Positions 1,960 to 63,092 of a DNA stretch of 64,000 nt are shown here, piece by piece. Origin of the DNA: Rhynchopus sp. YZ270_cl-10 (taxonomy: Eukaryota; Euglenozoa; Diplonemea; Diplonemida; Diplonemidae); the NCBI GenBank assembly GCA_964035575.1, contig OZ037870.1, forward strand, positions 1,218,014 through 1,282,013, in the 5' to 3' direction. Under the pieces are notes generated by a model that saw only the letters and a list, made by a program, of their open reading frames with translations, was not told where the DNA came from and ran no database searches. How positions within the stretch are numbered: the first letter of the stretch is position 1; every line of letters begins with the position of its first letter. The position numbers and the translations under genes were made by a program.

Positions 1960-3569
1960 TCTTTAGCTTTCTCAACACACACACATCTACCCCACAGATC
2001 AGCTGTGATCGACTGACACCATTTTTACGCTGTCTGATCATTGACTTGAACATCAGACATTTCCACATTGCTCTCCCTCTCGCCCTCCCTGTCAAGGGTT
2101 CATTGTTTGTACCGCACCTGGATGGCAGCTGGGCACACCTGTTAATCGTTCCGAACGATGCAGATCAGGGCGCCTGTGCTTTTCCACGGTTGTACTTTCT
2201 CTCTCTCTCTCTGAAATGTGTCGCGACGCTTGTCTGTGCTGTAGTTCTGACCCCTCGGAGGGGCTCTCAGAATGACGGTGCAAAGTGTGTCAAGACAAAA
2301 TGAGAGATACTTTTATCATTTAGCTTTATTTTCCCCACCCTCAAGCAGTCTAATCGTGGACAGCTCCAGTGCCGTTGGCTTCTGAGCGTCCTTCCGTGTA
2401 CTGCTGGTGCTCTTCCCTTACCTACCCATCCCCGTAATTTCCACTGTGTCTCTGGTGTTCGAAAATAGTTGAGGGCGTTGGCACACACTGCACGTGGCTG
2501 TGTTGATGTGGCCACCAAGGCTTCAACATGCGGCGGCTATTGAGCTGTCTTATTTCTACCAGTGGCGTACCCCTTCCCTTCCCCTTACAACAAAGTTTAT
2601 CTTTATCCGACAAAATAATGCGACGCCCGCGCTTTGCAGGTGTTGTATTATTTGTTGTTTTTCTCTGCTCGTTCTGCTTTGAGCATCATGTGAGAACGTT
2701 TGAACCAGACACAGGCTCTTGTATTTCCTTGCCACGCAAAGGTCAGGTTCTTGCAATGTCTGTGCCTAGTGAAGACCTCCTTCGCAGTTGCTCAGCGAAC
2801 ACCCGTTTTCTCTCTTTTTCCACAGATCGAAAGCCCGCATTGTACTCCTGGGTTAATTTGGTCGATGCTGTCTTTCTCTCGACAGCATATTGTTTCAGTT
2901 TTTATTTTCTCTCTCGCTCTTTTTATAATAAGGTGACCAAGCACGTGAGGCTTAGGGTCATCTTATAAACTTTTCTCTTTCAATCCTGCCCACCCTGTCT
3001 CCCATGTCAAGGTGTGTAGTTAGGATATTTTACATACATCACACATATTTCAAAACATTCGTGTAAGCGTATTCCGAGTCTCGTGTAGTTCGTGCACAGG
3101 AGACGGCAAGTAACACTGCCACATTCCTGAGCTTGGACAATCAGACTATACATCACCACGTTAACACAACAACTACAAAAAATAGAGGGCGACACTTTTT
3201 TGTAAACTCCCCCACACTGCATATGACTTCTCTTCTGTGAGATGTAACGCGCTCCCACCAAAAGGCCTCTCGTATCTGTAGCGACACACATGCACAGAAG
3301 GCGGCGTCGTCTTACCACGCACAGCATCTATCTCTCCTTCATAGGAAAGCACGCACCCCTGCACGGGCAATTCTTCTGACTACTCTGTGAGCGGGAAAGT
3401 GTCACGTAGTTCAGTCACCCAGCCGTGCTCCGGAACTCTGCCCGGCAGGTGTGGAGATAGTGTGTGGAAGCGAAGAGGGGAAAATTGGTTGTTGGGTAAG
3501 GGTTTGGGTACGTATATTACAATAACAACCCACACACGACAGGGTCTTTTCATTTTTTCCATAACAACT
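1960..3569 (+). other. Array intergenic region (3' flank and next 5' flank)
   Basis: About 1.6 kb between LRR genes, repeated four times (5244-6853, 8558-10167, 11872-13481), with the part up to about 16535 after the last gene. It holds a CT microsatellite near 2200, a GC-rich stem-loop at 2245-2272 (arms TTCTGA/TCAGAA enclosing CCCCT/AGGGG), a same-strand hairpin at 2930-2964, and the structured module before the next gene. A 146-residue frame at 2528-2968 is open but runs through the hairpin and resembles no protein. I see no second gene. Confidence 0.7.
2930..2964 (+). repeat. Class-1 dispersed hairpin (array, one per unit)
   Basis: Left arm AAGGTGAC then CAAGC, loop with GAGG, right arm GCTTAGGGTCATCTT. 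The outer 8 bp pair fully with one G-U, the inner part forms AAGC/GCTT, and a GG bulge lies between. It is followed by ATAAACTTTTCTCTTTC. Exact copies are at 6214-6248, 9528-9562, 12842-12876 and 16156-16190. This is the type example of a dispersed family. Confidence 0.8.
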
Positions 3570-5243
3570 ATGTTGCGTCTCGCTCAAGTTGCGTTGCTGC
3601 TTGCGACGTTTGCAGTGGGGTCTGATGCCAAGGTGTTCTACTGGTTCAAGGCGACGAGGAACTGGCAGAAGAGCCGTGGCAAGGAGCTCGGGAAGGAGGA
3701 GTACACCATGAAGGGATGGGTGAAGGTGGACACTGGAGTGTCGAGGGACCTTGGCTGTCTGACGTGCAACTCGCACAACCACTGCTCGATGACAGGGAAC
3801 TGGGCTGTGTCCGGAACACAGAGCACGTCCGGTGCTCTGCAGCTGAGAACGCACATGGATGCGTGGGAGGACGACAACGGCGGGAGGTGCTCGTTCAAGA
3901 AGGGGTTCTGGATCAACGATGACGACAGCCGCTGTCGCAAGGAGTGCAGTGTCAACATGAAGTCCTATGCAATGGGAACAACGCACACACACAGGTGCAG
4001 CGGTGGCAACGCCTGGCTTGAGGTGCAGTTCCGTTGGTGGCCAGACACCACGTCTGCGCCGGACACACTTGCACCCCCAACGTCTGCACCGCCAACATCG
4101 GCACCCCCGACAAGCGCACCGCCAACATCGGCACCCCCGACGTCTGCACCGCCAACAAACGCACCACCGACGTCCGCTCCCCCGACATCTGCTCCCCCGA
4201 CAAGCGCACCACCGACATCGGCACCGCCAACATCCGCTCCCGCGACTTCTGCACCACCCACTTCCGCACCACCAACACCTGCCCCGACTCCGTTGTGCAC
4301 TGACGGAACAGGATGGACGGACAGCCACGGCCACATGTGTGCGTTCTACATCCTGAGTGCTGTGCGCGACGCTCTGTACAACGAGACTCTTGGAGGCATC
4401 TTCTCCACCTGGACTGGCGACGACCCGTGCGTGTGGGGTGGTGTTGAGTGCTACGACGGAGAGTTTGTGTTCCGCCTCAAGCTTGGAAACACGGAAACTC
4501 TGGCAGCAGTGGTTCCGGACCTGTCCCGCCTGACGCGCATGGTTGAGTTGAACGTGCGTGGCACCCAGATCACTGGCTTTGCTGGACTGCCCGCATCTCT
4601 GCTGGACCTTGACTTCTCGTTCACACAGATCAACGGCCCGATGCCTGCCGCTGCCACTGCCGCAAAGAGGGCCATCAGTGCACGCAGTGCTGGACTGACA
4701 GGTGAGCTCCCAGACTTCCTGGACGGCATGCGCGAGATCGACGTGAGCTTCAACAGCATGGAGGGTCCGTTCCCTTCCCTGCCTGCCGACCTGATCAACT
4801 TCATTGCACAGAGCAACAAGTTCACTGGCCCACTCCCTGAGTGCGAGAGCTGCATGCGTGTCATTGTGAACACCAACGAGCTGACAGGGTCTCTGCGTGC
4901 CTACCCGAACCTGTGGACGGGACACTTCCAATACAACTTCCTGAGCGGTGGACTGGACCTGACGCTCATGCCCACAGCCACATACATTGACGTGACACGC
5001 AACATGCTGACCGGCACTGTGACTGACCTTCAGGACGCAGGGCTGAAGATCCAGACACTGAAGCTCGGACACAACGAGTTTTCGGGCAGTTTCCCATTTG
5101 CACCTGTGTCCCCTGCACGTGTGCTGCACCGCCTTGAGCTGAACCACAACCAGCTGACGGGTGCTGAGCCCACTGCAGCAGAGACTGCTCTGGTTGCAGC
5201 TCAGGTGACGCACAACGACAACACCTTCGGTATGCGGAACTAG
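3570..5243 (+). CDS. Secreted LRR protein (array copy 2, short linker)
   Basis: Same protein as copy 1 but 557 residues. It lacks ten residues (two pentapeptides, including the TNAPP and TPAPP variants) early in the proline-rich linker, a clean 30-bp loss in frame. Signal peptide, N-terminal domain and LRR domain are unchanged. This is the only coding difference I found among the five copies and it behaves like a minisatellite step. Confidence 0.88.
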   Translation: MLRLAQVALLLATFAVGSDAKVFYWFKATRNWQKSRGKELGKEEYTMKGWVKVDTGVSRDLGCLTCNSHNHCSMTGNWAVSGTQSTSGALQLRTHMDAWEDDNGGRCSFKKGFWINDDDSRCRKECSVNMKSYAMGTTHTHRCSGGNAWLEVQFRWWPDTTSAPDTLAPPTSAPPTSAPPTSAPPTSAPPTSAPPTNAPPTSAPPTSAPPTSAPPTSAPPTSAPATSAPPTSAPPTPAPTPLCTDGTGWTDSHGHMCAFYILSAVRDALYNETLGGIFSTWTGDDPCVWGGVECYDGEFVFRLKLGNTETLAAVVPDLSRLTRMVELNVRGTQITGFAGLPASLLDLDFSFTQINGPMPAAATAAKRAISARSAGLTGELPDFLDGMREIDVSFNSMEGPFPSLPADLINFIAQSNKFTGPLPECESCMRVIVNTNELTGSLRAYPNLWTGHFQYNFLSGGLDLTLMPTATYIDVTRNMLTGTVTDLQDAGLKIQTLKLGHNEFSGSFPFAPVSPARVLHRLELNHNQLTGAEPTAAETALVAAQVTHNDNTFGMRN

Positions 5244-6853
5244 TCTTTAGCTTTCTCAACACACACACATCTACCCCACAGATCAGCTGTGATCGACTGA
5301 CACCATTTTTACGCTGTCTGATCATTGACTTGAACATCAGACATTTCCACATTGCTCTCCCTCTCGCCCTCCCTGTCAAGGGTTCATTGTTTGTACCGCA
5401 CCTGGATGGCAGCTGGGCACACCTGTTAATCGTTCCGAACGATGCAGATCAGGGCGCCTGTGCTTTTCCACGGTTGTACTTTCTCTCTCTCTCTCTGAAA
5501 TGTGTCGCGACGCTTGTCTGTGCTGTAGTTCTGACCCCTCGGAGGGGCTCTCAGAATGACGGTGCAAAGTGTGTCAAGACAAAATGAGAGATACTTTTAT
5601 CATTTAGCTTTATTTTCCCCACCCTCAAGCAGTCTAATCGTGGACAGCTCCAGTGCCGTTGGCTTCTGAGCGTCCTTCCGTGTACTGCTGGTGCTCTTCC
5701 CTTACCTACCCATCCCCGTAATTTCCACTGTGTCTCTGGTGTTCGAAAATAGTTGAGGGCGTTGGCACACACTGCACGTGGCTGTGTTGATGTGGCCACC
5801 AAGGCTTCAACATGCGGCGGCTATTGAGCTGTCTTATTTCTACCAGTGGCGTACCCCTTCCCTTCCCCTTACAACAAAGTTTATCTTTATCCGACAAAAT
5901 AATGCGACGCCCGCGCTTTGCAGGTGTTGTATTATTTGTTGTTTTTCTCTGCTCGTTCTGCTTTGAGCATCATGTGAGAACGTTTGAACCAGACACAGGC
6001 TCTTGTATTTCCTTGCCACGCAAAGGTCAGGTTCTTGCAATGTCTGTGCCTAGTGAAGACCTCCTTCGCAGTTGCTCAGCGAACACCCGTTTTCTCTCTT
6101 TTTCCACAGATCGAAAGCCCGCATTGTACTCCTGGGTTAATTTGGTCGATGCTGTCTTTCTCTCGACAGCATATTGTTTCAGTTTTTATTTTCTCTCTCG
6201 CTCTTTTTATAATAAGGTGACCAAGCACGTGAGGCTTAGGGTCATCTTATAAACTTTTCTCTTTCAATCCTGCCCACCCTGTCTCCCATGTCAAGGTGTG
6301 TAGTTAGGATATTTTACATACATCACACATATTTCAAAACATTCGTGTAAGCGTATTCCGAGTCTCGTGTAGTTCGTGCACAGGAGACGGCAAGTAACAC
6401 TGCCACATTCCTGAGCTTGGACAATCAGACTATACATCACCACGTTAACACAACAACTACAAAAAATAGAGGGCGACACTTTTTTGTAAACTCCCCCACA
6501 CTGCATATGACTTCTCTTCTGTGAGATGTAACGCGCTCCCACCAAAAGGCCTCTCGTATCTGTAGCGACACACATGCACAGAAGGCGGCGTCGTCTTACC
6601 ACGCACAGCATCTATCTCTCCTTCATAGGAAAGCACGCACCCCTGCACGGGCAATTCTTCTGACTACTCTGTGAGCGGGAAAGTGTCACGTAGTTCAGTC
6701 ACCCAGCCGTGCTCCGGAACTCTGCCCGGCAGGTGTGGAGATAGTGTGTGGAAGCGAAGAGGGGAAAATTGGTTGTTGGGTAAGGGTTTGGGTACGTATA
6801 TTACAATAACAACCCACACACGACAGGGTCTTTTCATTTTTTCCATAACAACT

Positions 6854-8557: not shown

Positions 8558-10167
8558 TCTTTAGCTTTCTCAACACACACACATCTACCCCACAGATCAG
8601 CTGTGATCGACTGACACCATTTTTACGCTGTCTGATCATTGACTTGAACATCAGACATTTCCACATTGCTCTCCCTCTCGCCCTCCCTGTCAAGGGTTCA
8701 TTGTTTGTACCGCACCTGGATGGCAGCTGGGCACACCTGTTAATCGTTCCGAACGATGCAGATCAGGGCGCCTGTGCTTTTCCACGGTTGTACTTTCTCT
8801 CTCTCTCTCTGAAATGTGTCGCGACGCTTGTCTGTGCTGTAGTTCTGACCCCTCGGAGGGGCTCTCAGAATGACGGTGCAAAGTGTGTCAAGACAAAATG
8901 AGAGATACTTTTATCATTTAGCTTTATTTTCCCCACCCTCAAGCAGTCTAATCGTGGACAGCTCCAGTGCCGTTGGCTTCTGAGCGTCCTTCCGTGTACT
9001 GCTGGTGCTCTTCCCTTACCTACCCATCCCCGTAATTTCCACTGTGTCTCTGGTGTTCGAAAATAGTTGAGGGCGTTGGCACACACTGCACGTGGCTGTG
9101 TTGATGTGGCCACCAAGGCTTCAACATGCGGCGGCTATTGAGCTGTCTTATTTCTACCAGTGGCGTACCCCTTCCCTTCCCCTTACAACAAAGTTTATCT
9201 TTATCCGACAAAATAATGCGACGCCCGCGCTTTGCAGGTGTTGTATTATTTGTTGTTTTTCTCTGCTCGTTCTGCTTTGAGCATCATGTGAGAACGTTTG
9301 AACCAGACACAGGCTCTTGTATTTCCTTGCCACGCAAAGGTCAGGTTCTTGCAATGTCTGTGCCTAGTGAAGACCTCCTTCGCAGTTGCTCAGCGAACAC
9401 CCGTTTTCTCTCTTTTTCCACAGATCGAAAGCCCGCATTGTACTCCTGGGTTAATTTGGTCGATGCTGTCTTTCTCTCGACAGCATATTGTTTCAGTTTT
9501 TATTTTCTCTCTCGCTCTTTTTATAATAAGGTGACCAAGCACGTGAGGCTTAGGGTCATCTTATAAACTTTTCTCTTTCAATCCTGCCCACCCTGTCTCC
9601 CATGTCAAGGTGTGTAGTTAGGATATTTTACATACATCACACATATTTCAAAACATTCGTGTAAGCGTATTCCGAGTCTCGTGTAGTTCGTGCACAGGAG
9701 ACGGCAAGTAACACTGCCACATTCCTGAGCTTGGACAATCAGACTATACATCACCACGTTAACACAACAACTACAAAAAATAGAGGGCGACACTTTTTTG
9801 TAAACTCCCCCACACTGCATATGACTTCTCTTCTGTGAGATGTAACGCGCTCCCACCAAAAGGCCTCTCGTATCTGTAGCGACACACATGCACAGAAGGC
9901 GGCGTCGTCTTACCACGCACAGCATCTATCTCTCCTTCATAGGAAAGCACGCACCCCTGCACGGGCAATTCTTCTGACTACTCTGTGAGCGGGAAAGTGT
10001 CACGTAGTTCAGTCACCCAGCCGTGCTCCGGAACTCTGCCCGGCAGGTGTGGAGATAGTGTGTGGAAGCGAAGAGGGGAAAATTGGTTGTTGGGTAAGGG
10101 TTTGGGTACGTATATTACAATAACAACCCACACACGACAGGGTCTTTTCATTTTTTCCATAACAACT

Positions 10168-11871: not shown

Positions 11872-13481
11872 TCTTTAGCTTTCTCAACACACACACATCT
11901 ACCCCACAGATCAGCTGTGATCGACTGACACCATTTTTACGCTGTCTGATCATTGACTTGAACATCAGACATTTCCACATTGCTCTCCCTCTCGCCCTCC
12001 CTGTCAAGGGTTCATTGTTTGTACCGCACCTGGATGGCAGCTGGGCACACCTGTTAATCGTTCCGAACGATGCAGATCAGGGCGCCTGTGCTTTTCCACG
12101 GTTGTACTTTCTCTCTCTCTCTCTGAAATGTGTCGCGACGCTTGTCTGTGCTGTAGTTCTGACCCCTCGGAGGGGCTCTCAGAATGACGGTGCAAAGTGT
12201 GTCAAGACAAAATGAGAGATACTTTTATCATTTAGCTTTATTTTCCCCACCCTCAAGCAGTCTAATCGTGGACAGCTCCAGTGCCGTTGGCTTCTGAGCG
12301 TCCTTCCGTGTACTGCTGGTGCTCTTCCCTTACCTACCCATCCCCGTAATTTCCACTGTGTCTCTGGTGTTCGAAAATAGTTGAGGGCGTTGGCACACAC
12401 TGCACGTGGCTGTGTTGATGTGGCCACCAAGGCTTCAACATGCGGCGGCTATTGAGCTGTCTTATTTCTACCAGTGGCGTACCCCTTCCCTTCCCCTTAC
12501 AACAAAGTTTATCTTTATCCGACAAAATAATGCGACGCCCGCGCTTTGCAGGTGTTGTATTATTTGTTGTTTTTCTCTGCTCGTTCTGCTTTGAGCATCA
12601 TGTGAGAACGTTTGAACCAGACACAGGCTCTTGTATTTCCTTGCCACGCAAAGGTCAGGTTCTTGCAATGTCTGTGCCTAGTGAAGACCTCCTTCGCAGT
12701 TGCTCAGCGAACACCCGTTTTCTCTCTTTTTCCACAGATCGAAAGCCCGCATTGTACTCCTGGGTTAATTTGGTCGATGCTGTCTTTCTCTCGACAGCAT
12801 ATTGTTTCAGTTTTTATTTTCTCTCTCGCTCTTTTTATAATAAGGTGACCAAGCACGTGAGGCTTAGGGTCATCTTATAAACTTTTCTCTTTCAATCCTG
12901 CCCACCCTGTCTCCCATGTCAAGGTGTGTAGTTAGGATATTTTACATACATCACACATATTTCAAAACATTCGTGTAAGCGTATTCCGAGTCTCGTGTAG
13001 TTCGTGCACAGGAGACGGCAAGTAACACTGCCACATTCCTGAGCTTGGACAATCAGACTATACATCACCACGTTAACACAACAACTACAAAAAATAGAGG
13101 GCGACACTTTTTTGTAAACTCCCCCACACTGCATATGACTTCTCTTCTGTGAGATGTAACGCGCTCCCACCAAAAGGCCTCTCGTATCTGTAGCGACACA
13201 CATGCACAGAAGGCGGCGTCGTCTTACCACGCACAGCATCTATCTCTCCTTCATAGGAAAGCACGCACCCCTGCACGGGCAATTCTTCTGACTACTCTGT
13301 GAGCGGGAAAGTGTCACGTAGTTCAGTCACCCAGCCGTGCTCCGGAACTCTGCCCGGCAGGTGTGGAGATAGTGTGTGGAAGCGAAGAGGGGAAAATTGG
13401 TTGTTGGGTAAGGGTTTGGGTACGTATATTACAATAACAACCCACACACGACAGGGTCTTTTCATTTTTTCCATAACAACT

Positions 13482-15185: not shown

Positions 15186-16759
15186 TCTTTAGCTTTCTCA
15201 ACACACACACATCTACCCCACAGATCAGCTGTGATCGACTGACACCATTTTTACGCTGTCTGATCATTGACTTGAACATCAGACATTTCCACATTGCTCT
15301 CCCTCTCGCCCTCCCTGTCAAGGGTTCATTGTTTGTACCGCACCTGGATGGCAGCTGGGCACACCTGTTAATCGTTCCGAACGATGCAGATCAGGGCGCC
15401 TGTGCTTTTCCACGGTTGTACTTTCTCTCTCTCTCTCTGAAATGTGTCGCGACGCTTGTCTGTGCTGTAGTTCTGACCCCTCGGAGGGGCTCTCAGAATG
15501 ACGGTGCAAAGTGTGTCAAGACAAAATGAGAGATACTTTTATCATTTAGCTTTATTTTCCCCACCCTCAAGCAGTCTAATCGTGGACAGCTCCAGTGCCG
15601 TTGGCTTCTGAGCGTCCTTCCGTGTACTGCTGGTGCTCTTCCCTTACCTACCCATCCCCGTAATTTCCACTGTGTCTCTGGTGTTCGAAAATAGTTGAGG
15701 GCGTTGGCACACACTGCACGTGGCTGTGTTGATGTGGCCACCAAGGCTTCAACATGCGGCGGCTATTGAGCTGTCTTATTTCTACCAGTGGCGTACCCCT
15801 TCCCTTCCCCTTACAACAAAGTTTATCTTTATCCGACAAAATAATGCGACGCCCGCGCTTTGCAGGTGTTGTATTATTTGTTGTTTTTCTCTGCTCGTTC
15901 TGCTTTGAGCATCATGTGAGAACGTTTGAACCAGACACAGGCTCTTGTATTTCCTTGCCACGCAAAGGTCAGGTTCTTGCAATGTCTGTGCCTAGTGAAG
16001 ACCTCCTTCGCAGTTGCTCAGCGAACACCCGTTTTCTCTCTTTTTCCACAGATCGAAAGCCCGCATTGTACTCCTGGGTTAATTTGGTCGATGCTGTCTT
16101 TCTCTCGACAGCATATTGTTTCAGTTTTTATTTTCTCTCTCGCTCTTTTTATAATAAGGTGACCAAGCACGTGAGGCTTAGGGTCATCTTATAAACTTTT
16201 CTCTTTCAATCCTGCCCACCCTGTCTCCCATGTCAAGGTGTGTAGTTAGGATATTTTACATACATCACACATATTTCAAAACATTCGTGTAAGCGTATTC
16301 CGAGTCTCGTGTAGTTCGTGCACAGGAGACGGCAAGTAACACTGCCACATTCCTGAGCTTGGACAATCAGACTATACATCACCACGTTAACACAACAACT
16401 ACAAAAAATAGAGGGCGACACTTTTTTGTAAACTCCCCCACACTGCATATGACTTCTCTTCTGTGAGATGTAACGCGCTCCCACCAAAAGGCCTCTCGTA
16501 TCTGTAGCGACACACATGCACAGAAGGCGGCGTCGTCCTCCCACGCACAGCATCTATCTCTCCTTCATAGGAAAGCACACACCTCCCCTGCCCTGGCAGG
16601 TTCTTGAACGCTAAGACGAGCTGGTATCACTCGTACCAATCCTGAGAAACTGCGCCCCGTTCTCATGCTCGAAGCCCTCATCGAGTGAGAAATCAGCGAT
16701 TTTTTCCCCCAGATTTTTTCATATTTTCACCTCCAAAACAGACAACTAAACAACAACAT

Positions 16760-19198: not shown

Positions 19199-19617
19199 GA
19201 TTTTTTTTGAATTTTTGAGCGAACTTTTGATCAGTTTTTTTTTATTTTTTTTTGAAAAAAAAATTATCGCGCCGGTTGTGGTTTTACATTATTGCTGAAT
19301 CCTAAAAAAATCCCCTTTTTTTTGTTCATAATTTTCCCCCAGTTGAGGTTGTGTTAAAAGTGCCTTCTGCACGGTATTGCTTTAAAAAAAATCTGTGTGT
19401 TTTATTTTTTGTAGTGTAGTAATGGGTGGTGGAACTGTCAAAAAAGGGGAGAGTTCTTCTCTCCTCATTTTTTTCCCCCTTTCCCATCTTTCGCTATGTG
19501 GAAGCACAGCTTATGATGAGATTTTTTTTATTTTGAATATTTTTGAATATTTTTTCTTGAGATGCACTTTTGCGTCACCTGACGCGCGCATCTGACCAAT
19601 TCTCTAATGAGAACACT

Positions 19618-19646
19618 GCCTAAGCAACAGAAGCTTAGACCCATCT
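19618..19646 (+). repeat. Class-1 hairpin, partial
   Basis: CTAAGC, loop AACAGA, then AGCTTAG followed by CCCATCTTT and a T run. The inner stem is intact; the outer stem is degraded on the left. Confidence 0.55.
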
Positions 19647-19797
19647 TTCACAATCTTTTTTTTTTTTGAGTATCCAAACCATGTTATCACCCCCTTCCCA
19701 GTCAAGGATGGGGTAATGACTATGTGCCTGCTTACAGTTTCCCTGTTAGCAACTCCCAAGCGCAACACTCCGGGGTTCGATGACCCCGCAGAGTGTC

Positions 19798-20069: not shown

Positions 20070-20110
20070 AAGGTGGCCAAGCAGGCCAAGAGCGGCTTAG
20101 GTCCGTATTA
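20070..20110 (+). repeat. Class-1 hairpin, diverged
   Basis: Left arm AAGGTGGCCAAGC, longer loop, right arm GCGGCTTAGGTCC, then a pyrimidine tail with TTTTCTCTTTTTT. The AAGC/GCTT inner stem is kept; GGCCAAGC can also pair within the loop. Confidence 0.55.
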
Positions 20111-21119
20111 CCAATTTTCTCTTTTTTAACGTCCATTTTTTTTTTTTTTTGGATGCACAACTGAGTGTTTTTTCTTAACAGATCCTCTAAGTGTGTGTGA
20201 AAGGCCATACTGTATCACCTTTCGATCCTCTCAGGGTAGCACGGTGTATCATCTGGAAAAGACTTCCCCCCCAAGGTGATTTTTTTTTGTCAAAACAGTA
20301 CAATAATTAGGGTGGCTCGCTAAAATGAAAATGAAAAAATAAATTTCATTCTGGTTTCGTGCACTGCACGGCCACGATTTTTTTTTGCGTTATTTGTTTC
20401 TTCTTTTTTCTTCTTTTTGAAAGAGAAATAAAGCGCCAAATCTTAAAACGTTTTATTAGGGTTTGGAATACCCACGAAGTGTTCGTGCTTTGCTGTTTCA
20501 GAGTCGGTTTGCACATATTAACTTCACTATATTTTCCATTATTAGTATAACCAAGCAGGTATGTTGTATTTTCTGGGTCCGCTCTGAAGTTATTGAAAAA
20601 AAGAAGGACTGATTGGAACTTCGTTCAAAAAGTGGTTCTTTTTTGTCTAAATTTGTTTCCTTTTCAAATGACTGCTGAAGGGACGGAAGCGACATAATAT
20701 TATTGAGAAAAAAATAATCTTTTTGGACCGAAAAAAAAAAAAACAGCTTCCCGCCACCTTTCTTGTATTTTGTTCTACGATCGGGACTCATATGAGTTTC
20801 CCGCATCGCTCAATAACAACTAAATGACAGGAAACGGCGGGAGCCGCGAAGAATTAAGAAAAAACAAAACAAAACAAAACAAAAATAAATTTGAGAAAAC
20901 GCAATGTTTAAAAAGAGAAAGAAAAAAAAGAGATTTTCACAACTGTGGCAACACAACCGAGGCAACTACACTAATCCAACAATTTTTCAAATAATTCAAA
21001 AAACATGAAATGTGCCACCGGTAATACCAGTCTTATCACAGCCAGTCTTTTTTTTCAAACCCTGAATGCTGTGTTGTGTCTGTGAGACCCATACAAAAAA
21101 AATTTCAAGATTTATTTCT

Positions 21120-21173: not shown

Positions 21174-21202
21174 AGTGCCTGCGTCTCAGAGGCGTTTGCA
21201 CT
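21174..21202 (+). repeat. Class-3 hairpin, best example
   Basis: AGTGC/GCACT outer stem, CGTCT/AGGCG inner stem (one G-U) and CAG loop, with three unpaired bases on each side between stems. Tail ATCAACTTCACTTCC. Confidence 0.7.
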
Positions 21203-21585
21203 ATCAACTTCACTTCCTTTTCTTTTCTTTTCATTTAGGTGGCTAAACAAGAATTTTAACTTTATTTTTTCATTATTTTTTCCCCCTTCAAAACTTCATT
21301 TTTTTGTTCTTGGTTCATTTACTCTTGTCTTGTTTTTTTAAAAAAACCAAAATCTCGCGAAAACTGAGGAGGCCTTTTGTGGGTATAACAAGGCTTTACC
21401 CGCCTACATCCACAAGGCTTACTCTTACAGAAGCACACACAACAAAACATAAGCAATTTTTCTCAGAAATTCTGTCAACACAAGATCCATCATCCCGAGC
21501 AAATCTTTTGCTATTATCATTGTTCCCTATTTACGCACTATGTAAAAGGGAAATGACTGATAATTTCTACCTTTTTTTTTATACG

Positions 21586-21692: not shown

Positions 21693-22499
21693 ATCAAACA
21701 ACTACAAGAAGGGGGGTGAGGGAACGACAAGTGACACTTTCTGACTGTTGTATGGGTTATTAAGACAGAAAACAGGGTTAAAATAGTAGCCAATTTGACC
21801 GTTTCCTTTCAATTCATGGAAACATTTGGTTTTGCTCTTTTTCTTTTCTTTTTTTGCAAAAACTGCTTTAAAATTGACTTTTTTTTTCTTCTTATCCACA
21901 CGTACATTATCTTTTCTGGTCAAAAAGCGTTTAAAAGACATCGCCGGACATCCTCAGAAGGAAGAACGATGACTTCCTTCTCCTTCATATTATTAGTGAC
22001 TCAACATGAGAGGCTAAGATTCATCTTTTGCCATTTCTTATTGTTTGTGTCAGTGTATACCTGGTTTGGCCAGAGGGCTGGTTATTTCATAATATTATGG
22101 TAGGCATTGAGGACAGTGAGAGGTCATGTGTGTTCCAACTTTCCAGAGATGAAGAAGTAAGTAGTATTTTCTTCTGCTGAAAGTGGGCCCGCATCTCTCC
22201 CGTTTTGAAACCAGGAAAGAATTGTACCAATTTTTTTTCTGTACCGCTTTTGTATTTTCTTGTATCCATCTTTTCAATGTTTTTTTTCCCTTTTTCTTTC
22301 TTTTCCCAAATCGGCTCGCTTCCTTTAGTGGGGAGAGCTGAGTGTTTTCTAACCCAAAAAAAAGAAAAACTGTTAACAGAAAACGAACGGAACGAAAATA
22401 ACGAAAAATAACAAAAAGAAAACCATTTTTTTTTGTCTCGATACAAAAAAAATAATGCGCAAAAAAAAGAGCTGAATCGCCTTCGGTGAAACGGCTCTT

Positions 22500-25796: not shown

Positions 25797-25831
25797 AAGG
25801 TGACTAAACACAGAGGCTTAGGGTTCATCTT
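25797..25831 (+). repeat. Class-1 hairpin
   Basis: AAGGTGACTAA left arm, loop with GAGG, right arm TTAGGGTTCATCTT; tail ATGACCGCTTTCTTTTG. Outer stem nearly complete. Confidence 0.7.
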
Positions 25832-26160
25832 ATGACCGCTTTCTTTTGTTGATAGTCATTTTTTTTTCTCAGCTTGCCTCCACCATTTCAGAAAAAAAAA
25901 TGATATTTTTATTTCTGTTTTGCGTCGAAAAAAAAAAACTCCATCTATCTTAGCAAATACTTACTCTTTTGTGTCGGTGTGTGATTGGATGTGTGCATCT
26001 CGTACAAAAAATTTTTCAAGGCGACTTAGTAAAGTATATGAAATTGACATTTTGGTTCGTCTGTTGACGATATCAACACACGAACAAAAGACTTTTTTTT
26101 AAAAAGGGGGCAACAGTGTCGGGGAACTACCCCTTCACAAACACAGCACTGCCCTTTTTA

Positions 26161-39355: not shown

Positions 39356-39621
39356 CAACCTTTTTGTTTTCAAAGATGTATGCGCACAAATGCATTTCAT
39401 CTGTTATATCTTTCTTTTTTTTCCTTTTCATTATTTTTTGGTACACTGTCACGAGAGGGCTTTGTATTCCAATTCAATTTCTTTTTTCTATCTCTAACAC
39501 ACACACACACACATGTAAAAAACCCGCCTTTTTTTGCACCCCCCCCACACACTACCCTAACGCAAAAGAAAAAATATAACTAACCTTTCTTAACCAACAC
39601 CTTTTCTTCTTCTCTCCCTTT

Positions 39622-39656
39622 GATGACTAAGCACCGCAAGGCTTAGGTTAAATCTT
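39622..39656 (+). repeat. Class-1 hairpin
   Basis: GATGACTAAGC left arm, loop ACCGCAAG, right arm GCTTAGGTTAAATC. The inner stem is perfect. The tail leads into pyrimidine tracts and an AG shortly before the next gene. Confidence 0.65.
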
Positions 39657-39827
39657 ACAAAAAACACCTTTTCTTTTTTGTTTTTTTCTGGAGAACAAAA
39701 GGGCATACATCGCAAAAACAGCGTTTTTTTTTTTTTTTCGAACAAAAAATATCTCATTTTTCCTTCATTTCCCCCTGATCTCATAACATTTTTTTTATTC
39801 AGTTTTGAAAAAGAGATACACGATACT

Positions 39828-43938: not shown

Positions 43939-44481
43939 TAAAATGGGTTTTGGGATAGCAAGTTAGACCCAATGTTACCTTTTTCTCTTTTTTTTGACCT
44001 TTATATAATCTCGAAGTGCGACAACTCATTTGGTTGAGTCTGCATTTACAACTTCTCGTTTTTTTTATTGGTGACTCAGCTATGAGGCTTCATCTGATAA
44101 ACTGACTTCTCTTTTGTCTCCGGGTTTAGAAACAAAATTACAAAATCAACAAAATAGCCATTTTTTTTAGCACTACATACCCCCCACCTTTTTCATGGAA
44201 AACTCCATCTTCCACTGCGTTATCTTCTGTTGCAGGCCGCAGGGTACTTTCATCCGGATGGCTAACATCGCACGTGGGTCAGTCGGAGGTGCCTGCATCA
44301 ACAACCACAGTTTTATCTCTCTGGGGTTTTGATAACCCTCGGAGAACCCCTGCGTCTGGTGTACGGTGAGGCGGCACTTTCAACCTCTCTTTTTATCTCA
44401 AATCATTTTCATCAATTCCTGCAAATCGCTACTCCAGATTCATCCCTCCCTCCCCTCCCTCTCTCCTAACAAAAAAAAAAA
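43939..44481 (+). other. Intergenic with hairpin and a GC-rich structured stretch
   Basis: A class-1 hairpin relic lies at 44070. A GC-richer segment at 44233-44370 can fold into two stem-loops (GCAGGC/GCCTGC and GGGGTT/AACCCC) and stands out from the AT-rich surroundings; it might be a small noncoding RNA. Pyrimidine-rich DNA precedes the next ATG. Confidence 0.5.
44070..44096 (+). repeat. Class-1 hairpin, shortened
   Basis: GGTGACTCAGC left arm, TATGAGGC loop, TTCATC right arm: GGTGA pairs with TCATC. Tail TGATAAACTGACTTCTCTTTT. Confidence 0.5.
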
Positions 44482-46639: not shown

Positions 46640-46962
46640 GACTTCGAAAGTGTGCAAAAAAAGGTTTCCCTGCTCTTTTTTTCACCTTCGTATACTTGAA
46701 AAGCGCGTTCCCACTTTTGCAAAATTGGCTGTGTTAGTGCACCCGAGGATGTGTTCCCACTTATGTTATTGCCGTGTCCCTGCGTTTCATTCCGCATGAC
46801 AGGGAAAATTCTGTGCTTGAATTTGCGAGACGTTCCCTGCGCTGGAATTCTTTTTGACGACTACATCCAGGGTTGTTGTTTTTCTTTTTCTTTTCTTTTT
46901 CTTTTTTTTGCGTCTCCAACGTGTCCCTGTGCACTAAATATGGGGCGGGCCTGCCTCATTTC

Positions 46963-46996
46963 GCATGACTAAGCACGCGAGGCTTAGGGCCATCTT
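46963..46996 (+). repeat. Class-1 hairpin present in only one duplicate
   Basis: CATGACTAAGC, loop ACGCGAG, GCTTAGGGCCATC, then TTTTCTTTTCTTTTTG. The duplicate region at about 48756-48776 reads from TCTCGCA straight into TTTTTTTTCTG, without the hairpin. Confidence 0.8.
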
Positions 46997-47156
46997 TTCT
47001 TTTCTTTTTGAACAAAAATGAGGTGTCGCTGTCTGTTGAAAACAAACACAATTTCGAACCCCTCTTTTAATTTGTAATCGTACTCACACCCTGCGTTTGG
47101 TCAAAACCACATACACATAAAACAGAAAACCAAAAAGCACAACACCTCGAAACAAA

Positions 47157-48074: not shown

Positions 48075-48638
48075 TTTATTCCACAGTTTAATAAAGTATA
48101 AGGATTTGACACTTTTTAAGCGTGATTCTTTTAATGGCAGCGCATCCGAAGCATTTTTTGTGAGTGATATAGCCTTGCTCAAACAGCCAACGTCAGTATT
48201 TTGCTGGGTGTCTGAGCACGTGCTCAGTGCACTTTATTAACTTTAGTTTTTAGTTATTTTTTGAGACCAGTATGAACTGCAGTGCTGCAGACTGCGACAG
48301 CATACTCGCTTGTTTCTTGTTCTGCCCACATACTTGCCCTGACCTTTTATACCTTTACCTGTTTACCATTCAACTTTACTTTATTATCCATCTTCGACCT
48401 TGCGTTGTCTTGTTGTTTGTTTCTTACTTGCAAGAAAAAGACACCGCTACCACCACCTTTAACTCTCGGGCACTCACTTAGCACTGCTAATATTCACTCG
48501 TTAGTATTCGCCAACAGTGCCATTTAGATACTTCACTTATTTTTTCCTAATGCTCGTGGGCTCACACTCGCCTGGGGGAAAAATACGTGAAGTTATCGCA
48601 AAAAACCCCCCTCGGTAAAAGGCGTTGAATAACTAGTT
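48075..48638. mobile_element. Short copy of the recombinase-type element, inserted in the MAPEG duplication
   Basis: About 0.56 kb. It shares the left end (TTTATTCCACAGTTTAATAA) and the right near-palindrome (ACTTCACTTATTTTTTCC ... GTGAAGTTATCGC ... AAAAGGCGTTGAAT) with the element at 23346-25113 but not the body. The duplicate near 46850 reads GGAATTC straight into TTTTTGACGACTACA, which is the empty site. Looks like an internally deleted, non-autonomous copy; younger than the duplication. Confidence 0.65.
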
Positions 48639-51220: not shown

Positions 51221-51252
51221 AAGGTGGCTAGGCAGAAGCTTAGTTTCATCTT
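51221..51252 (+). repeat. Class-1 hairpin, compact
   Basis: AAGGTGG then CTAGGC, loop AGAA, GCTTAG, then TTTCATCTT. Inner stem CTAGGC/GCTTAG pairs fully with a G-U where other copies have A-T. Tail ATAAATTTTTC plus T run. Confidence 0.7.
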
Positions 51253-51337
51253 ATAAATTTTTCTTTTTTTTTTTTTGAAAACTTGGTTGTATTAGTGTAG
51301 CCACCCTAGAGTGTGCTCCACTATTTTTTTAATTTTC

Positions 51338-51373
51338 AAGATGATTTAGCACAGAGAGGCTTATGTTCATCTT
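51338..51373 (+). repeat. Class-1 hairpin
   Basis: AAGATGATTTAGC left arm and TTATGTTCATCTT right arm with GAGAGGC in between. The outer stem is AAGATG/CATCTT, so G-U of the type copy is A-U here. Tail AAAACCAACTTTTC. Confidence 0.65.
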
Positions 51374-51399
51374 AAAACCAACTTTTCTTTTACTCTACC

Positions 51400-55407: not shown

Positions 55408-55477
55408 GTCAACCTCACTTTTTATGTGTAAGTACACTGTCACCCTGCGACACCTTCATCTTCCATATGTTTTTGGT

Positions 55478-55510
55478 CGTGACTAAGCCAGAGGGGTTTA
55501 GTTGCATCTT
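55478..55510 (+). repeat. Class-1 hairpin, diverged
   Basis: CGTGACTAAGC left arm, loop CAGAGG, GGTTTAG then TTGCATCTT. Tail ACCCCTTTATA. About 650 nt after EML. Confidence 0.55.
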
Positions 55511-56520
55511 ACCCCTTTATACATCTCCTTTATGCCATGTTAGTGGATATTAGAAAAAAAGCAAAACAAAAAACAAAGAGTGCGAACACCCGCCCCATTG
55601 TAAGGAGAAAGGAACTATTGGGTGTTGGGTTGGGTTGGGGGATGAGGGGGGAGAATGTCCACCTTCCACCAAGGTGTGCATTTTCCATTTTTTTTTCTTT
55701 TTCGCTTTTTGATAAATGAGAAAAGAGTTTGCATACACACAGTGCAATCCTTCCAACAAACAGTCTTAACAACGTGCAGGACTTCAGGGCTAAGGGTGTC
55801 AAAAATCTACAAATGGACACGGGAAGGGAGAGATGCGTCGCAGTGAAAAAAAAATGGTCTGACAAATTCTCAGGCTTAGTTGCGTAGGTTCAAAGAAAAA
55901 AGATGGGTTTCTTGAAGACGCATACTTCGTGTATTCTCTCTTGTGCTCCCTGCCTCCAACCGTGGTTATTTAGTACGAACGAAACAGGGGTTTCTGAGGG
56001 TAAAAACGGGAGGGGAAAAAATGTAAAAAAAAAGTATAGTCCATTATTGTATGCTCTTTTGCTTCAAGGGGAAGTGGTCCCTCGGTAGGACTGAGGTGTA
56101 CCTTCTTTTCCAGTTAATTACAAGAAAAAATAAGAAATATTCAGTAAAAAAAAGGGGGGCAAACAACGGCAGCAAAAAAAGTAAAACACACACCCTACTA
56201 AAATCCAAAAAAAAAGGCCACTTTTTTCTATATTTTTCCCCATCCACTTTTTTCGCCCCTTTTTCACCTTTCAGCTTTTACTCTCTATTGCAGGTGTTCC
56301 CCCCAAAAAAGGGACATATTTACACAGGGTTTTTTTGACAGTCTCATTTTTTTGACCCATTTTGGAGCTATTACAGGGTTGTTTGTTGTCATTTTGCAGT
56401 CTGTTTCCGGTTCTTTTTTCAGCAGAAAACAGTTTTCCCTTTTTTTTTGCGCTTTGCTTCCAGTGCTCTTAGCTTTACAGTCTTCACCTTCCCCTCAGCT
56501 TTCTTTTTTACAAAAGAAAA

Positions 56521-58948: not shown

Positions 58949-58998
58949 AGTGCCTGCACCCCACCGGTTGTACTCAGATATGGCGAGGTGTTTGCACT
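58949..58998 (+). repeat. Class-3 hairpin, long loop
   Basis: AGTGC/GCACT outer stem and CACC/GGTG inner stem around a longer loop. Tail TTGAGCTTCTCTTTTCCC. Some 260 nt after the preceding gene. Confidence 0.5.
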
Positions 58999-59012
58999 TT
59001 GAGCTTCTCTTT

Positions 59013-59152: not shown

Positions 59153-59467
59153 AACATCTATTGTACTCCTCCCCCTCCCCCTTTAGAAACACCCTATCTT
59201 TCCCTGTACTTCAAAAAAAACAACCAAAAAAAAAAAGTTTATTTTCTCCTTTCCCCCTTTTTTCTCTACCCTACCTAACTTCGCCCATGTATTGCATATT
59301 TAGGACATCTATGAACGGGGAGAGATTTTTTTCACATAGCTCTCAGGTAGCGTCTCTCAGGCTCTCACCGCCTGTTTGCGTGTCTCGCGGAGACGATCAT
59401 GGATGGCCCAATATCATATGTTGTCAGAATCTTAAAAAAAATACCTTATTTTTTTGGGGTAATTATC

Positions 59468-61318
59468 ATAACACCCACGTTACTAATACCCATTTACGAT
59501 AATACCCACTGGGTATTATCGTAAACTTTTTGGGTATTAGTTTTGGGTATTATCGTAAACTTTTTGGGTATTACCCAGGTTGGGTAGTACCCAGGCACCC
59601 AGGTACCCAGGTCCAGGTCCAGGAACAGGTACCCAGGAACAGGAAAAAAGTCGTGAAAGAGCAACCACAGCTCCACATGACAAACACAAAAGTGTCCAGT
59701 CACGTGGGGCATTCATGCACTGAGGAGATAATGATCCAACAATTTACAAGAAAGATTACTTAACCTACTGCTGGAAATTGCCAGGTCGTAGTAAGACACA
59801 AAGTGTGCCTCCGTTCGGGAAGACCGGATATTCTAGAGACCAAAAAGGCCTCAAGAATATCTTCCGGTAGTCAAGGTAGAACCGAGTGAACGGCCCAAGA
59901 CCCCCGTGGAGAAGTTAAATGTTGTAATGCTATCAGGTAGAAACTGCGAACACTGTCTTACCCTCCTCAATGCATGGTGGTTGATGTCTTCCACAACAAA
60001 TTTCCTGTACCCAGGTACCCAAATTCCCAGACCCACGCAGTACCACGTCGCAGTACTACGCAAAATTTACCACCAGACCCAGTCTTCGTGCACCTTAAGT
60101 ACAACGCCGCAGACAGGCCAAACATGCGTTGGACTCAGAGGAATGCCCGCTGTGCAGGTATCATGAGAACCAACTCCCAGCAACAAGGGGCGCCTTTTGG
60201 CGGGCGTTGTTGAGGGTGTTTGGGGTGCAAAGTTTTCCACAATTTTGATGCGCGGGTACAGAAGTGTTGTCTTGTTCTTTCATCTCTAGGAATGTAAATG
60301 TCAATCGCGTTTAACTACCACTAGGGCTTGTTCAGTGAACCCACAAGGGGTCGAAGGGGGTTGGTTATCCCATATCTATCAAAGGTTGTGTCGACCAGGC
60401 GAAACCACTATGTTACGCTGTACGTTGTTAAATCCGAAGAAATAACACTTTAGCAGCCGCAGGAAGTTTGCTAAAAAGAGTGCCTCACGCTACACAAACC
60501 ACCACCCGCGATTGACTTAGATGTTATAACAAAGAGAATTCAGAACAAAACAACACCCTGCCCCATACACACTAAATTGTCATGCTTCAAGAACATGCCT
60601 GGGCCAAAATTACTATGACGAAAAGGCAACAAGACCACCCACAAGGAGTGTGAAATGTGCACTGGTTTTCTGGGGGAACGCAATATTTTCTTGTGTCTAG
60701 TCCTCCGCGAGCAGAGGACAGACTTTCCGGAAGGTTGCCAAAGTCGAATTTCTTGCACTAGCTATGCTCCCTGGGTTAATGGCTATAGCAGTGACTGACT
60801 AAATGTTCCCACCCAGGTCTTCGTATGTTGAGGTGTAGAATGTCGGAGACGGAGAAGCGCAATCGCTGATGCAGTTCAGATTTCGCGATCCTGTGATGAG
60901 TGTAAATGTGGGTGTAATTAAGTTATGTCGCTTGGAGAAAGATTAATTGTTAATTGTCAAGAAAAATGGTTACCCTGAATTTGAGGATGTAAGACAGGGA
61001 TGCAAAAAGTTGTGTAAAAAAAAAAAACCCCCCCCCAAATATATAGTGAAAATTGTATTTTCTCTGGGGTCGATGAAACCATACCTTGTCTGCACATTCA
61101 CCAGCGTGCGAGCGCCTCTGATACCTTGCGCGAGTAGCCAGCTAAATCACATCGTACCTGGGTACCTGGGTAATACCCAAAAAGTTTACGATAATACCCA
61201 AAACTAATACCCAAATAGTTTACGATAATACCCAAAAACTTTACGATAATACCCAAAAAGTTTACGATAATACCCAGTGGGTATTATCGTAAATGGGTAT
61301 TAGTAACGTGGGTGTTAT
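59468..61318. mobile_element. 1.85-kb DNA-transposon-like element with long palindromic inverted ends
   Basis: Both ends read ATAACACCCACGTTACTAA inward and continue as inverted repeats of over 100 bp. Each contains a palindrome (arm TTTACGATAATACCCA, one-base centre, then its complement) and several more GATAATACCCA units, whose number differs between ends; GTACCCAGG repeats follow. The interior of about 1.5 kb has a more balanced base composition than the flanks and only short frames (up to 86 codons), so any transposase is decayed or absent. One frame near 60100 has a CPLCRYHE-like cysteine pair. Target duplication is unclear. Confidence 0.75.
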
Positions 61319-61702
61319 AGTCATTTTCCCTATTTTTTTGTGATATCAAGCATTGATGAATAGAAATGGAAAACGACGGATGCCCGCTTTAGCGTATTGG
61401 TTTTCCACTAACATACACATCACTCTCATTGATCAGTGAAAAAACACAAACCTTTCGCGGTGCGATAAACGAAAAAGTGTTTTCCTTATTTCATTTTAAC
61501 TGTCATATCCTGAAGTCGTTTTCTATTTTTTCCCCCTCTCCAAGCTCCCCTTCCCCCCTCCCAGACTCTTTCCATATTCCTTCTTTTTCCTTTTTCCTTT
61601 TTCCTTCTTCTTCCTTCTTCCTTCTTCTTCCTATCTCCTCCTTTCCATTTTGCATTTTTCAACTTTTTCTGATATTGTCCATTTGGTTTCCCATTCCACA
61701 CT

Positions 61703-62326: not shown

Positions 62327-63092
62327 AAAAAACCATATAGTGGAGTTCATCCTCGGGTGGCTACACTAATACAACCAAGTTTTCAAAAAAACCACATTTG
62401 CGGGTTTTGACAAGGTAGGCATAGCAACGCCTGCGAGGCCACATCTGGGAAAACCAGATTTGAAAAACTGGAAAAATATCCAGATCTGACAGTATCCGTG
62501 TGAACAGAATTACGGAACAAACCCTGTTTTCTGGAAAATTATTTTTAAACCATAACACAGATCCACCTTGACGATTCTATGGTGCAGGAATACATCTCGA
62601 GCATAGCGCGGCCTGTCACGCGAGTGGCACAAAGATAGCTGCGACGAGAAAGGGGGCACGGACAAATAAGAGGAGAGCGAGAAAGGGAGCGGGGCGCTTC
62701 TGCGTCCCCAAAGGGAAGCACTGAGGGAAGCAGTCCCCTCCCCCTGGCAGATCTCTTTCCAGAGAGGTGGCGGGGGGGCTGCTGTGGGGTGTTGTTGTTC
62801 TGTCCGAGGTGGCTAAGCAATGAGGCCTGGCTTCGGGTTGGTTGTCCATACACCTTTCTTCTGTTGAAAAGTGTACCAAATTTCCTTGAAGTAGATTTTG
62901 AGTTTTAAGTCATGTGTGCGTAGTCACACTCGAACAAGAGAGAGGGCTTTTGTATTTCAACTTTTTCCGCAAACCCGCAAATTTTTAATCCTCAACAATG
63001 ATTCCTCTCAGAACACACAAAACACAACACACAACACAACACATCCGTACCCATAAAACGTACGGTTCTGATTTTTTTAAAAGGGGTTTATA
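62327..63092 (+). other. Intergenic before SPX gene
   Basis: A diverged class-1 hairpin lies at 62806-62834 (GAGGTGGCTAAGC, then TGAGGCCTGGCTTC). A class-2 relic lies near 62911 (CATGTGTGCG...CACTCGAAC). GC-richer stretch 62620-62780 without a recognisable gene. Confidence 0.5.

Follow-up and report, generated by a model that had tools for sequence, protein, structure and literature searches.

A dispersed intergenic hairpin in a diplonemid genome as the probable 3' tail of a non-LTR retrotransposon clade

In the window (the whole stretch of DNA that was analysed, 64 kb long), a unit of a 35-nt hairpin followed by ATAAACTTTTCTTT is found repeatedly in intergenic DNA, almost always on the strand of the genes. 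A diplonemid source is indicated by the spliced leader. The question raised by this locus is whether such a unit serves the genes as an RNA element or was left there by a mobile element.

Hairpin copies in the window and in the genome

Copies were scored with a covariance model designated R1, which was built from a seed containing seven of the window copies and run on the window and on 20 arbitrary 10-kb stretches. All copies in the window are on the forward strand. Five identical ones lie in a 3.3-kb gene array, at 2930..2984 (70.8 bits, E 2e-10), 6214..6268, 9528..9582, 12842..12896, and 16156..16210 (70.8 bits each). Further strong copies are at 25797..25851 (E 2e-7), 39620..39676 (E 7e-6), 46961..47008 (E 1e-4), 51221..51272 (E 1e-8), 51338..51393 (E 3e-8), and 55476..55530 (E 3e-4). 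All of these, with E from 2e-10 to 3e-4, had been listed in the preliminary description of this DNA (there with 39622, 46963, and 55478 as positions of three of them). From its weaker entries, 19618 and 20070 were recovered as weak, degenerate copies at 19612..19667 (E 0.0075) and 20070..20129 (E 0.015), and 44070 as a marginal one at 44068..44116 (E 0.11), but 39049 is at noise level (E 2.6), and 22500, 39320, 48864, and 62806 were not reported by R1 at E<=10; a looser pattern caught 22500 and 39320. Two copies absent from that list were found at 21993..22047 (E 0.0012) and 48205..48255 (E 0.016). The latter has an inner stem CTGAGC/GCTCAG and occupies, after MAPEG-like paralogue C, the place matching that of the alignable copy 46961..47008 in the 3' flank of MAPEG-like paralogue B; both flanks retain the hairpin, with one pair compensated. 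One intergenic region is crowded with several hairpin copies, and other gaps are empty.

The family is real beyond the window, and its copies number in the thousands. The 13-nt left arm has 3,452 exact occurrences in the 152-Mb genome (1741 and 1711 by strand) against 0 and 1 for the reversed control, and the sequence of loop and tail has 731 and 698 by strand against 0 for its control. The bulge base varies, being A in about half, G in about a third, and mostly T in the rest of 100 listed copies tallied approximately by eye. An Rfam scan of the window gave no family at the gathering threshold, a scan of viral contigs with the exact 25-nt consensus gave 0 matches, and no published description of the hairpin was found in a literature search, which is not proof of its absence from print. 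An H/ACA-like two-hairpin RNA, an idea that came from extended copies, was dropped, as the extension is the end of an ORF.

The parent element and its tail-only copies

A 245-nt query ending in the hairpin and its tail gave 1,102 candidates, and the 40 scored matches (one being the source locus) all reach the tail and have the last ~232 bp of the element in common at 99-100% identity. When 20 of the 3' ends were fetched, the shared sequence stopped at about ATAAACTTTTCTTT, with diverging flanks beyond. The bulge base is A in 19 of these 20 young copies, and the idea of template modification as the source of its variability was dropped on this ground. The body variant ACTTATTGG is paired with the hairpin variant CTGAGC in both cases (L099 and L100) among the same 20. 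A 219-aa C-terminal query yielded 152 matches, at least 18 of which, among the matches listed, belong to open frames 1462 codons long; for relatives of 38-40% identity the frames extend to 1,508 codons. Eighteen frames of 1462 codons contain RVT_1 (E about 1e-23), and the C-terminal match is part of the same frame (for example, RVT_1 at C14:1128211-1128879 and the C-terminus at C14:1129897). Pfam searches with the 219-aa piece and with the C-terminal piece from locus L007 gave no matches.

The stem-loop forms the 3' end of a young family whose reverse transcriptase lies in open frames of up to 1,462 codons, hairpin variants occur together with body variants, and short copies share only the 3' end. 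The hairpin with ATAAACTTTTCTTT is probably the 3'-terminal stem-loop of a clade of non-LTR (LINE-type) retrotransposons, present mostly as tail-only copies, and not a gene-processing signal. From the roles proposed at first (3'-end formation, trans-splice acceptor, mRNA stability, and retroposed small RNA), the last came nearest, the hairpin being the 3' end of a retrotransposon and most copies being bodiless. A puzzling 'RNA family' would thus become a retrotransposon tail, and diplonemid genome annotation would be spared a false regulatory element. An origin from a MITE or DNA transposon was set aside because the unit has a G-U pair and a 3' bulge, its U-rich tail is on one side only, and its parent encodes a reverse transcriptase.

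Of the 3,452 exact left arms, just 233 are flanked by an exact match to the 16 nt adjacent in the element, so most copies look tail-only. Element sequence upstream of the hairpin exceeds 57 nt (the limit tested) in L008 and L044 and amounts to 44 nt in L047, 23 nt in L041, and 10 nt in L005; it is shorter than 6 nt in 20 of 28 copies, and L018 and L030 apparently start within the hairpin. In the window, the copy at 25797 aligns to the retrotransposon with 75% identity over 25763-25846, and GCTGTGCGATAACGATTGTGATC followed by an A-run, upstream of it, is likely a remnant of the retrotransposon body. Counting against the tail origin, most copies begin almost at the stem base, which is not predicted by random 5' truncation, and the bulge base varies across copies while it is A in the young element; the two-sided changes and the compensated paralogue flanks discussed below have to be added here. 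Target-site duplications stood clear of the shuffled-flank control in only one of 52 copies (L038, 57 bp); short ones are hidden by T-rich sites. The 15 nt upstream of 22 bodiless copies contain 71% pyrimidines, compared with 55% at 60-75 nt upstream.

By analogy with stringent-type LINEs, the encoded protein would bind the 3'-terminal stem-loop of the RNA and start target-primed reverse transcription at pyrimidine-rich sites. Synthesis would usually halt once the hairpin, or little more, has been copied, and intergenic copies consisting of the ~50-nt tail alone would result; something coupled to the direction of transcription or replication would set their orientation. Most copies would then decay without pairing constraint, and a minority may be kept as RNA elements.

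A second hairpin, designated F2, has similar habits. A single locus, L007, shows a related element that ends in an F2-type hairpin, different from the first, with a T-rich tail behind it. The F2 family is dispersed (20 sense copies and one weak antisense), with matched 21-mers in the window at 21191..21211 (one mismatch) and 58987..59007 (three mismatches), both on the forward strand. Its form F2b, which was counted genome-wide, was not seen joined to any retrotransposon. The first hairpins are in turn hosts of a nested, site-specific retroposon. This second retroposon, whose 3' end reads ...AACATTAAGTAATCTAATCA, is inserted at a single fixed position inside the hairpins; its 5' ends vary, and the target is duplicated. 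All 40 scored matches, of 489 candidates, extend at least 10 nt into the hairpin, with a query that held 17 nt of hairpin and so favours matches running into it; in 17 of 20 loci, themselves selected by the junction, the insert is preceded by the left part of a hairpin.

Placement, pairing, and orientation

With R1, 50 matches at E<0.5, four of them identical array repeats, were obtained from 16 sources in the window and the 20 arbitrary stretches, and they are on a single strand in each source. That the hairpins face the way of the genes was confirmed in 14 of the 16 sources; the other two have little coding signal, and it is larger on the strand opposite the hairpins (625 vs 35 bases in L025, 212 vs 0 in L028). 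None of 37 matches overlaps predicted coding sequence, which makes up 41% of the sample, in agreement with the preliminary description. The copies are thus unequal on the strands relative to genes and avoid coding sequence, and the equal distribution that had been named as evidence against the family was not seen. On our own reading, a near-consensus copy elsewhere (L041) forms the in-frame terminus of an ankyrin-type ORF. The median distance to upstream coding sequence is 941 nt for hairpins and 1134 for random noncoding positions, and that to downstream coding sequence is 1041 and 998, respectively (four identical array copies of 2930 omitted; upstream coding segment within the locus for 27 of the 37 matches). 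A fixed distance, suggested earlier as support for a processing role, is therefore missing relative to predicted coding sequence, as distinct from transcript ends.

Partial compensation of arm differences, also claimed earlier, is in line with an alignment of 27 copies (A1), where 7 of 13 pairs changed on both sides and two-sided changes occupy 9 cells compared with 2.5 in shuffles, but not with the two positions tested genome-wide in near-consensus copies. Position 10 is C or T in 31 of these, with pairing restored in 0 of 31, and G in 69, with C opposite in 5 (100 of 107 places listed). At the second position, 0 of 27 broken pairs are repaired, as read by eye (100 of 108 places listed, 73 being insertion junctions). 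Among 21 left-arm changes elsewhere in the inner stem, a single one (position 12) has a Watson-Crick change to match it, and three give G-U. Lack of significant covariation had also been named as evidence against the family, and at the two positions compensation is indeed absent, in contrast to the strand result. Distances like those of random noncoding sites, together with broken pairs left unrepaired, count against any fixed role in processing.

A cis-acting mRNA element (3'-end formation, trans-splice acceptor, or stability) kept at genes, from which the retrotransposon only borrowed its hairpin, would agree with the coding-strand and noncoding placement, the mostly bodiless copies, the hairpins in both MAPEG paralogue flanks with their compensated pair, and the excess of two-sided changes. 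It is nevertheless improbable, as distances to coding sequence on either side are not fixed, copies crowd one intergenic region and are absent from other gaps, pair breaks are uncompensated, some copies are apparently truncated within the hairpin, hairpin variants follow element subfamilies, and an unrelated second hairpin with the same habits stands after another element of the clade.

For insertions of the clade, orientation was related to the polycistronic unit, whose direction was deduced from a hand-entered subset of hairpin markers after removal of isolated opposite copies at C1:1212801 and C2:322457. All assignable copies are sense, 40:0 for family 1 (the young element) and 30:0 for its relatives, and the second hairpin family is 53:0 (100 of 125 copies listed), while other reverse-transcriptase families have 29 sense and 24 antisense copies when ten frame-length classes that differ among themselves are pooled. 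The sense:antisense numbers are 4:9 for class 1364, 3:6 for 132x, 4:4 for 1862, 5:1 for 1747, 4:0 for 1597, and 4:1 for 1619, and with the last three mostly sense, the clade may not be alone in its sense bias. Copies without like-oriented flanking markers were left unassigned (45 of 85 family-1 rows, 14 of 44 relatives, and 67 of 134 reverse-transcriptase rows, 13 of these 67 belonging to the 1462 family). The 134 rows were taken from 150, the other 16 being further classes. Assignment by the nearest marker only, in a set of 93 rows of family 1 and 54 of relatives (three or more of the rows listed are absent from it, two of them second pieces of the same copies), gave opposite orientation in 4 of 62 rows for family 1 and in 2 of 33 for the relatives, each >130 kb from the marker used. 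Eight family-1 and ten relative rows of this set were excluded from the final tally, 17 of the 18 being on marker-less contigs and one a second piece. Copies of LTR integrase were unusable as an orientation control: they number just 23, and many of them, judged by eye, lie between markers of opposite orientation.

General counter-selection against antisense insertions is disfavoured by the pooled 29:24. That the bias stems solely from how many T-rich targets the coding strand offers is hardly to be expected either: the pyrimidine enrichment upstream of bodiless copies is in its favour, but in 254 kb T-runs >=8 are 305 sense and 257 antisense (1.2:1) and pyrimidine tracts >=15 are 252 and 121, and neither can yield 98:2 to 100:0. 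The orientation rule, which target supply leaves unexplained, makes transcription- or replication-coupled retrotransposition directly testable, and the hairpins show which way transcription runs over whole contigs.

It is also possible, though rather unlikely, that a sizeable part of the retroposon-derived copies was domesticated as 3'-UTR regulatory hairpins, like Leishmania SIDER. Here, too, copies beside genes in polycistronic units are sense, with L025 and L028 as exceptions or uninformative, and the paralogue flanks retain the hairpin with a compensated pair. In PMC2689281, SIDERs are reported as sense-only in 3'UTRs and ~4-fold sense-biased in gene clusters. Against domestication, near-consensus copies decay uncompensated, and the young element itself is equally biased, so the bias needs no selection on hairpin function.

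For the retrotransposon clade, we tentatively propose that it inserts absolutely co-directionally with the polycistronic unit through integration coupled to transcription or the replication fork, while some other families insert both ways. About ten thousand tails would then form a genome-wide ledger of direction and home sites for the second retroposon, and some may act as mRNA hairpins.

Comparison with known systems

According to PMC4176376, ZfL2 elements require a 3' stem-loop that is bound by the encoded protein, and UnaL2 needs a bulged nucleotide in its stem-loop. The family resembles stringent-type LINEs (UnaL2, ZfL2-1, and ZfL2-2) in the 3'-end stem-loop with bulged stem, the short tail, and short copies that share only the 3' end. 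Unlike UnaL2 and ZfL2, with their short repeats, it has a U-rich tail, consists mainly of tail-only copies, and, wherever insertions could be assigned, follows the direction of transcription without exception.

SIDERs are described in PMC2689281 and PMC11520807 as truncated, degenerate euglenozoan retroposons flanking genes in polycistronic units with a sense bias. The hairpin copies are similar in truncation, degeneration, gene-flanking position, and sense bias. SIDERs are several hundred nt long, extinct, and partly antisense, whereas the unit here has ~50 nt and a young parent, with sense orientation in every assigned copy of the clade.

SLACS and CRE of trypanosomatids and R2 are site-specific non-LTR elements, and the second retroposon, as known from its 3' ends, likewise uses one fixed site in a repeated sequence; its home, however, is a dispersed hairpin repeat and not SL RNA or rRNA genes. 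Bacterial REP palindromes are short, intergenic, of high copy number, and used as targets by mobile elements. The hairpins are similar to them as short intergenic palindromes in many copies that are mobile-element targets, but they are eukaryotic, of RNA-mediated origin, and in one orientation per transcription unit.

Hairpin copies in the window and in the genome

The host genome is 152.4 Mb long in 126 contigs. The hairpin has the consensus AAGGTGA CTAAGC ACGAGAG GCTTAG GN TCATCTT ATAAACTTTTCTTT, with 13 pairs, a loop of 7 nt, and a 3'-side bulge of 2 nt, and is followed by a U-rich tail; the consensus folds at -13.3 kcal/mol (z -3.9). Using 27 copies as the basis of a covariance model, the best window copies of the preliminary description were recovered at E values of 2e-10 to 3e-4, but of the weak ones, 22500, 39320, 48864 and 62806 had no reported match and 39049 matched at noise level. 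Two further window hairpins were found at 21993 and 48205. In 20 arbitrary 10-kb stretches, 17 matches were obtained at E<0.001; extrapolated solely from these stretches, the genome total would be roughly 13,000. These hairpins are thus a genuine and abundant feature of the genome, with a striking strand rule. Each source carried its matches on a single strand (50 matches at E<0.5), in agreement with the same-strand arrangement first described. The further claim that hairpins face the same way as genes held in 14 of 16 sources, where they were on the predicted coding strand, but L025 and L028 had a small coding signal on the opposite strand. A location outside coding exons was also borne out, as none of 37 matches overlapped predicted coding sequence, though this makes up 41% of the sample. 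Exact left arms listed for contigs C1 and C2 (n=100) form long blocks, with eight strand switches in 98 neighbouring pairs and two lone copies of opposite orientation. Among the listed copies of loop plus tail, six out of seven contigs have minus at left and plus at right, that is, units running outward from one centre, and C2 has four orientation blocks. Given these strand blocks along contigs, the hairpins therefore mark transcription direction.

Spliced-leader (SL) RNA genes were found in the genome, with exon AACCAACGATTTCTAAAGCTACAGTTTCTGTACTTCATTG followed by GTATGG. The euglenozoan SL AACCAACGATTTAAAAGCTACAGTTTCTGTACTTTATTG is presumably that of Diplonema. The exon differs by a few bases from this SL as given in PMC3795323, and the source of the window was taken to be a diplonemid. 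The SL-end pattern with at most one mismatch has 740 matches in the genome. SL RNA genes occur in short scattered arrays on C1 and other contigs (e.g., loci L012-L016), and at L010 an SL-like end is joined to other sequence without GT, resembling a retrocopied mRNA. In Diplonema papillatum, gene clusters are polycistronic; untranslated regions measure about 70 bp at the 5' side of mRNAs, and at the 3' side their median is about 800 bp (PMC10161547). The SPO11-like protein of the window has two relatives, with 51% and 43% identity.

Other repeats are present in the window. Positions 1-16500 hold five near-identical tandem units of 3.3 kb, each with a gene for a leucine-rich, threonine/proline-repeat protein. 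Long inverted repeats of short units at 26165-26567 and 59456-61330 apparently have no relation to the hairpin family. An additional short palindromic repeat, ACGTACACTACTTTGTAGCGCAAAGTG, is located at 48948, with partial similarity at 21569 and 25123.

Hairpins and gene processing

Roles in RNA processing had been offered beside retroposed RNA. No fixed distance to genes was found: measured to the nearest predicted coding segment on each side, distances were 941 nt upstream versus 1134 nt at random noncoding positions, and 1041 versus 998 nt downstream. Partial compensation of arm differences had also been described, and two-sided changes do occur at 7 of 13 pairs in the 27-copy alignment, but the two positions counted genome-wide point the other way. 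Among 100 listed of the 107 copies in which position 10 is not A and the outer stem and loop are fixed, the matching base was opposite in 0 of the 31 with C or T; position 10 was G in the remaining 69, a base still able to pair with U, and C was opposite in 5 of them. Position 3 is changed by other than insertion junctions in 27 listed copies, with compensation in 0. By these distance and compensation checks, an RNA-processing signal is not supported as far as could be tested. MAPEG-like paralogues at 45950 and 47157 have retained hairpins in equivalent downstream positions (322 and 395 nt past their stops), one with stem CTAAGC/GCTTAG and the other with CTGAGC/GCTCAG; a variant similar to the latter was found at L022. 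Such paired stem changes fit source-lineage changes or domestication of some copies.

Retrotransposon 3' end, short copies and nested insert

Near-consensus hairpin copies have a varying length of shared upstream sequence. A 245-nt query from L008 gave 1,102 candidates, of which 40 were scored, all at 99-100% and ending in hairpin and tail. In two copies read through, an open frame reaches its stop immediately 5' of the hairpin. The 219-aa C-terminus matched 152 places, 18 of those listed being in 1462-codon frames, in which a reverse transcriptase domain is also present; its relatives, with 38-40% identity, have frames of up to 1,508 codons. Among 20 fetched 3' ends, hairpin and body co-vary, as body ACTTATTGG goes with stem CTGAGC in 2 and the other 18 are without CTGAGC. 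All but one of the 20 have A as bulge base, and their common sequence stops at about ATAAACTTTTCTTT. Together, the co-variation, the stop before the hairpin and the reverse transcriptase frames identify the hairpin as the 3' terminus of a LINE-type element (family 1, or the 1462 family). At L041, read by eye, the hairpin supplies the final 12 codons and stop of an ankyrin-repeat ORF (KVTKHERLRVIL, TAA), so that a retroposon tail seems to serve as coding end.

Of 3,452 exact left arms, only 233 are preceded by an exact match to the next 16 nt of the element, and fewer than 6 nt of the element lie upstream in 20 of 28 near-consensus copies (22 when counting L003 and L048, with the element extension shifted or diverged). 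The left arm was undetected in 6 of 23 copies, about four of which look truncated inside the hairpin on reading. Short copies would result from extreme 5' truncation or from copying of short 3' fragments, with the stem base as a probable favoured end point. At L038, a perfect 57-bp direct repeat surrounds the hairpin, the sole clear case resembling target duplication in 52 copies.

One locus, L007, contains a relative of the 38% class with a different hairpin, GTGCCTGCGTCCCAGAGGCGTTTGCAC, and a U-rich tail a short way past the stop of its frame. Hairpins sharing its 3' part were designated F2, with forms F2a (as at L007) and F2b (with GTCCGCCGATGAACGGTGA); the junction with a retrotransposon was seen for F2a alone, at L007. 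F2 is dispersed, with 20 sense and 1 weak antisense copies within 264 kb, and one F2b 34-mer has 125 exact copies. Several degenerate hairpins lie within about 450 nt behind the L007 element (read by eye), their crowding suggesting insertion hot spots.

In 73 of 100 listed places with the position-3 variant, the left arm is interrupted (start AATCAG or a near variant). The flanks of 20 such places revealed, in 17, the left hairpin part, an insert ending in AACCAATGTTCAAAACATTAAGTAATCTAATCA, then GACTAAGCACGAGAGGC and the remaining hairpin; L073 has seven bases of the left part, and L059 and L064 have none in view. All 40 scored matches to the insert 3' end extend into the hairpin, the query itself including 17 nt of hairpin, while 5' ends vary. 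The insert (loci L057-L080) looks like a site-specific, 5'-truncating retroposon housed in the hairpin, which would nick after AAGGT and duplicate about 15-22 nt of target.

Orientation rule and comparison with known systems

Unit direction was taken from flanking hairpin markers. Sense and antisense counts are 40:0 for family-1 C-termini (45 unassigned), 30:0 for the 38-40% relatives (14 unassigned) and 53:0 for F2b (47 unassigned; 100 listed of 125 copies); the markers are themselves hairpins, and these counts show agreement with hairpins, while agreement of both with genes rests on sampled loci. Reverse transcriptase domains beyond the 1462 family are 29:24 when pooled; among single classes, 1364 is 4:9, and 1747 (5:1), 1597 (4:0) and 1619 (4:1) lean to sense. 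Compared with 14:0 in the 1462 family, the pool differs at Fisher p 0.001 and class 1364 at 0.0002. The genome thus tolerates retroelements in antisense orientation, which makes general counter-selection an unlikely cause of the rule. T-runs of at least 8 number 305 sense versus 257 antisense and pyrimidine tracts of at least 15 number 252 versus 121, so target supply is not a likely cause either. Insertion tied to transcription or replication direction would be the simplest idea left. Many LTR integrase copies (genome matches to PF00665) lie between opposed hairpin blocks, near strand-switch regions. Copies of the 1505 reverse transcriptase family checked by eye are also between opposed blocks, with 14 of 14 copies having no direction assigned.

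LINE-1, SLACS, R2 and jockey-like genes are reported in D. papillatum, and hairpin tails are unmentioned in the available part of that genome description (PMC10161547). In zebrafish, the 3' stem-loops of stringent LINEs are essential and serve as binding sites for the element's own protein, and a bulged base is needed in UnaL2 (PMC4176376). The diplonemid hairpin would work like these and shows the sequence features tested. Leishmania SIDERs, reportedly sense-only inside 3'UTRs (PMC2689281), have a similar genomic habit, but the diplonemid hairpins have a stricter orientation rule and a young parent element. The hairpins are best read as tails of a retrotransposon, a known kind of sequence, here combined with a direction rule and a putative nested parasite specific to the hairpin.
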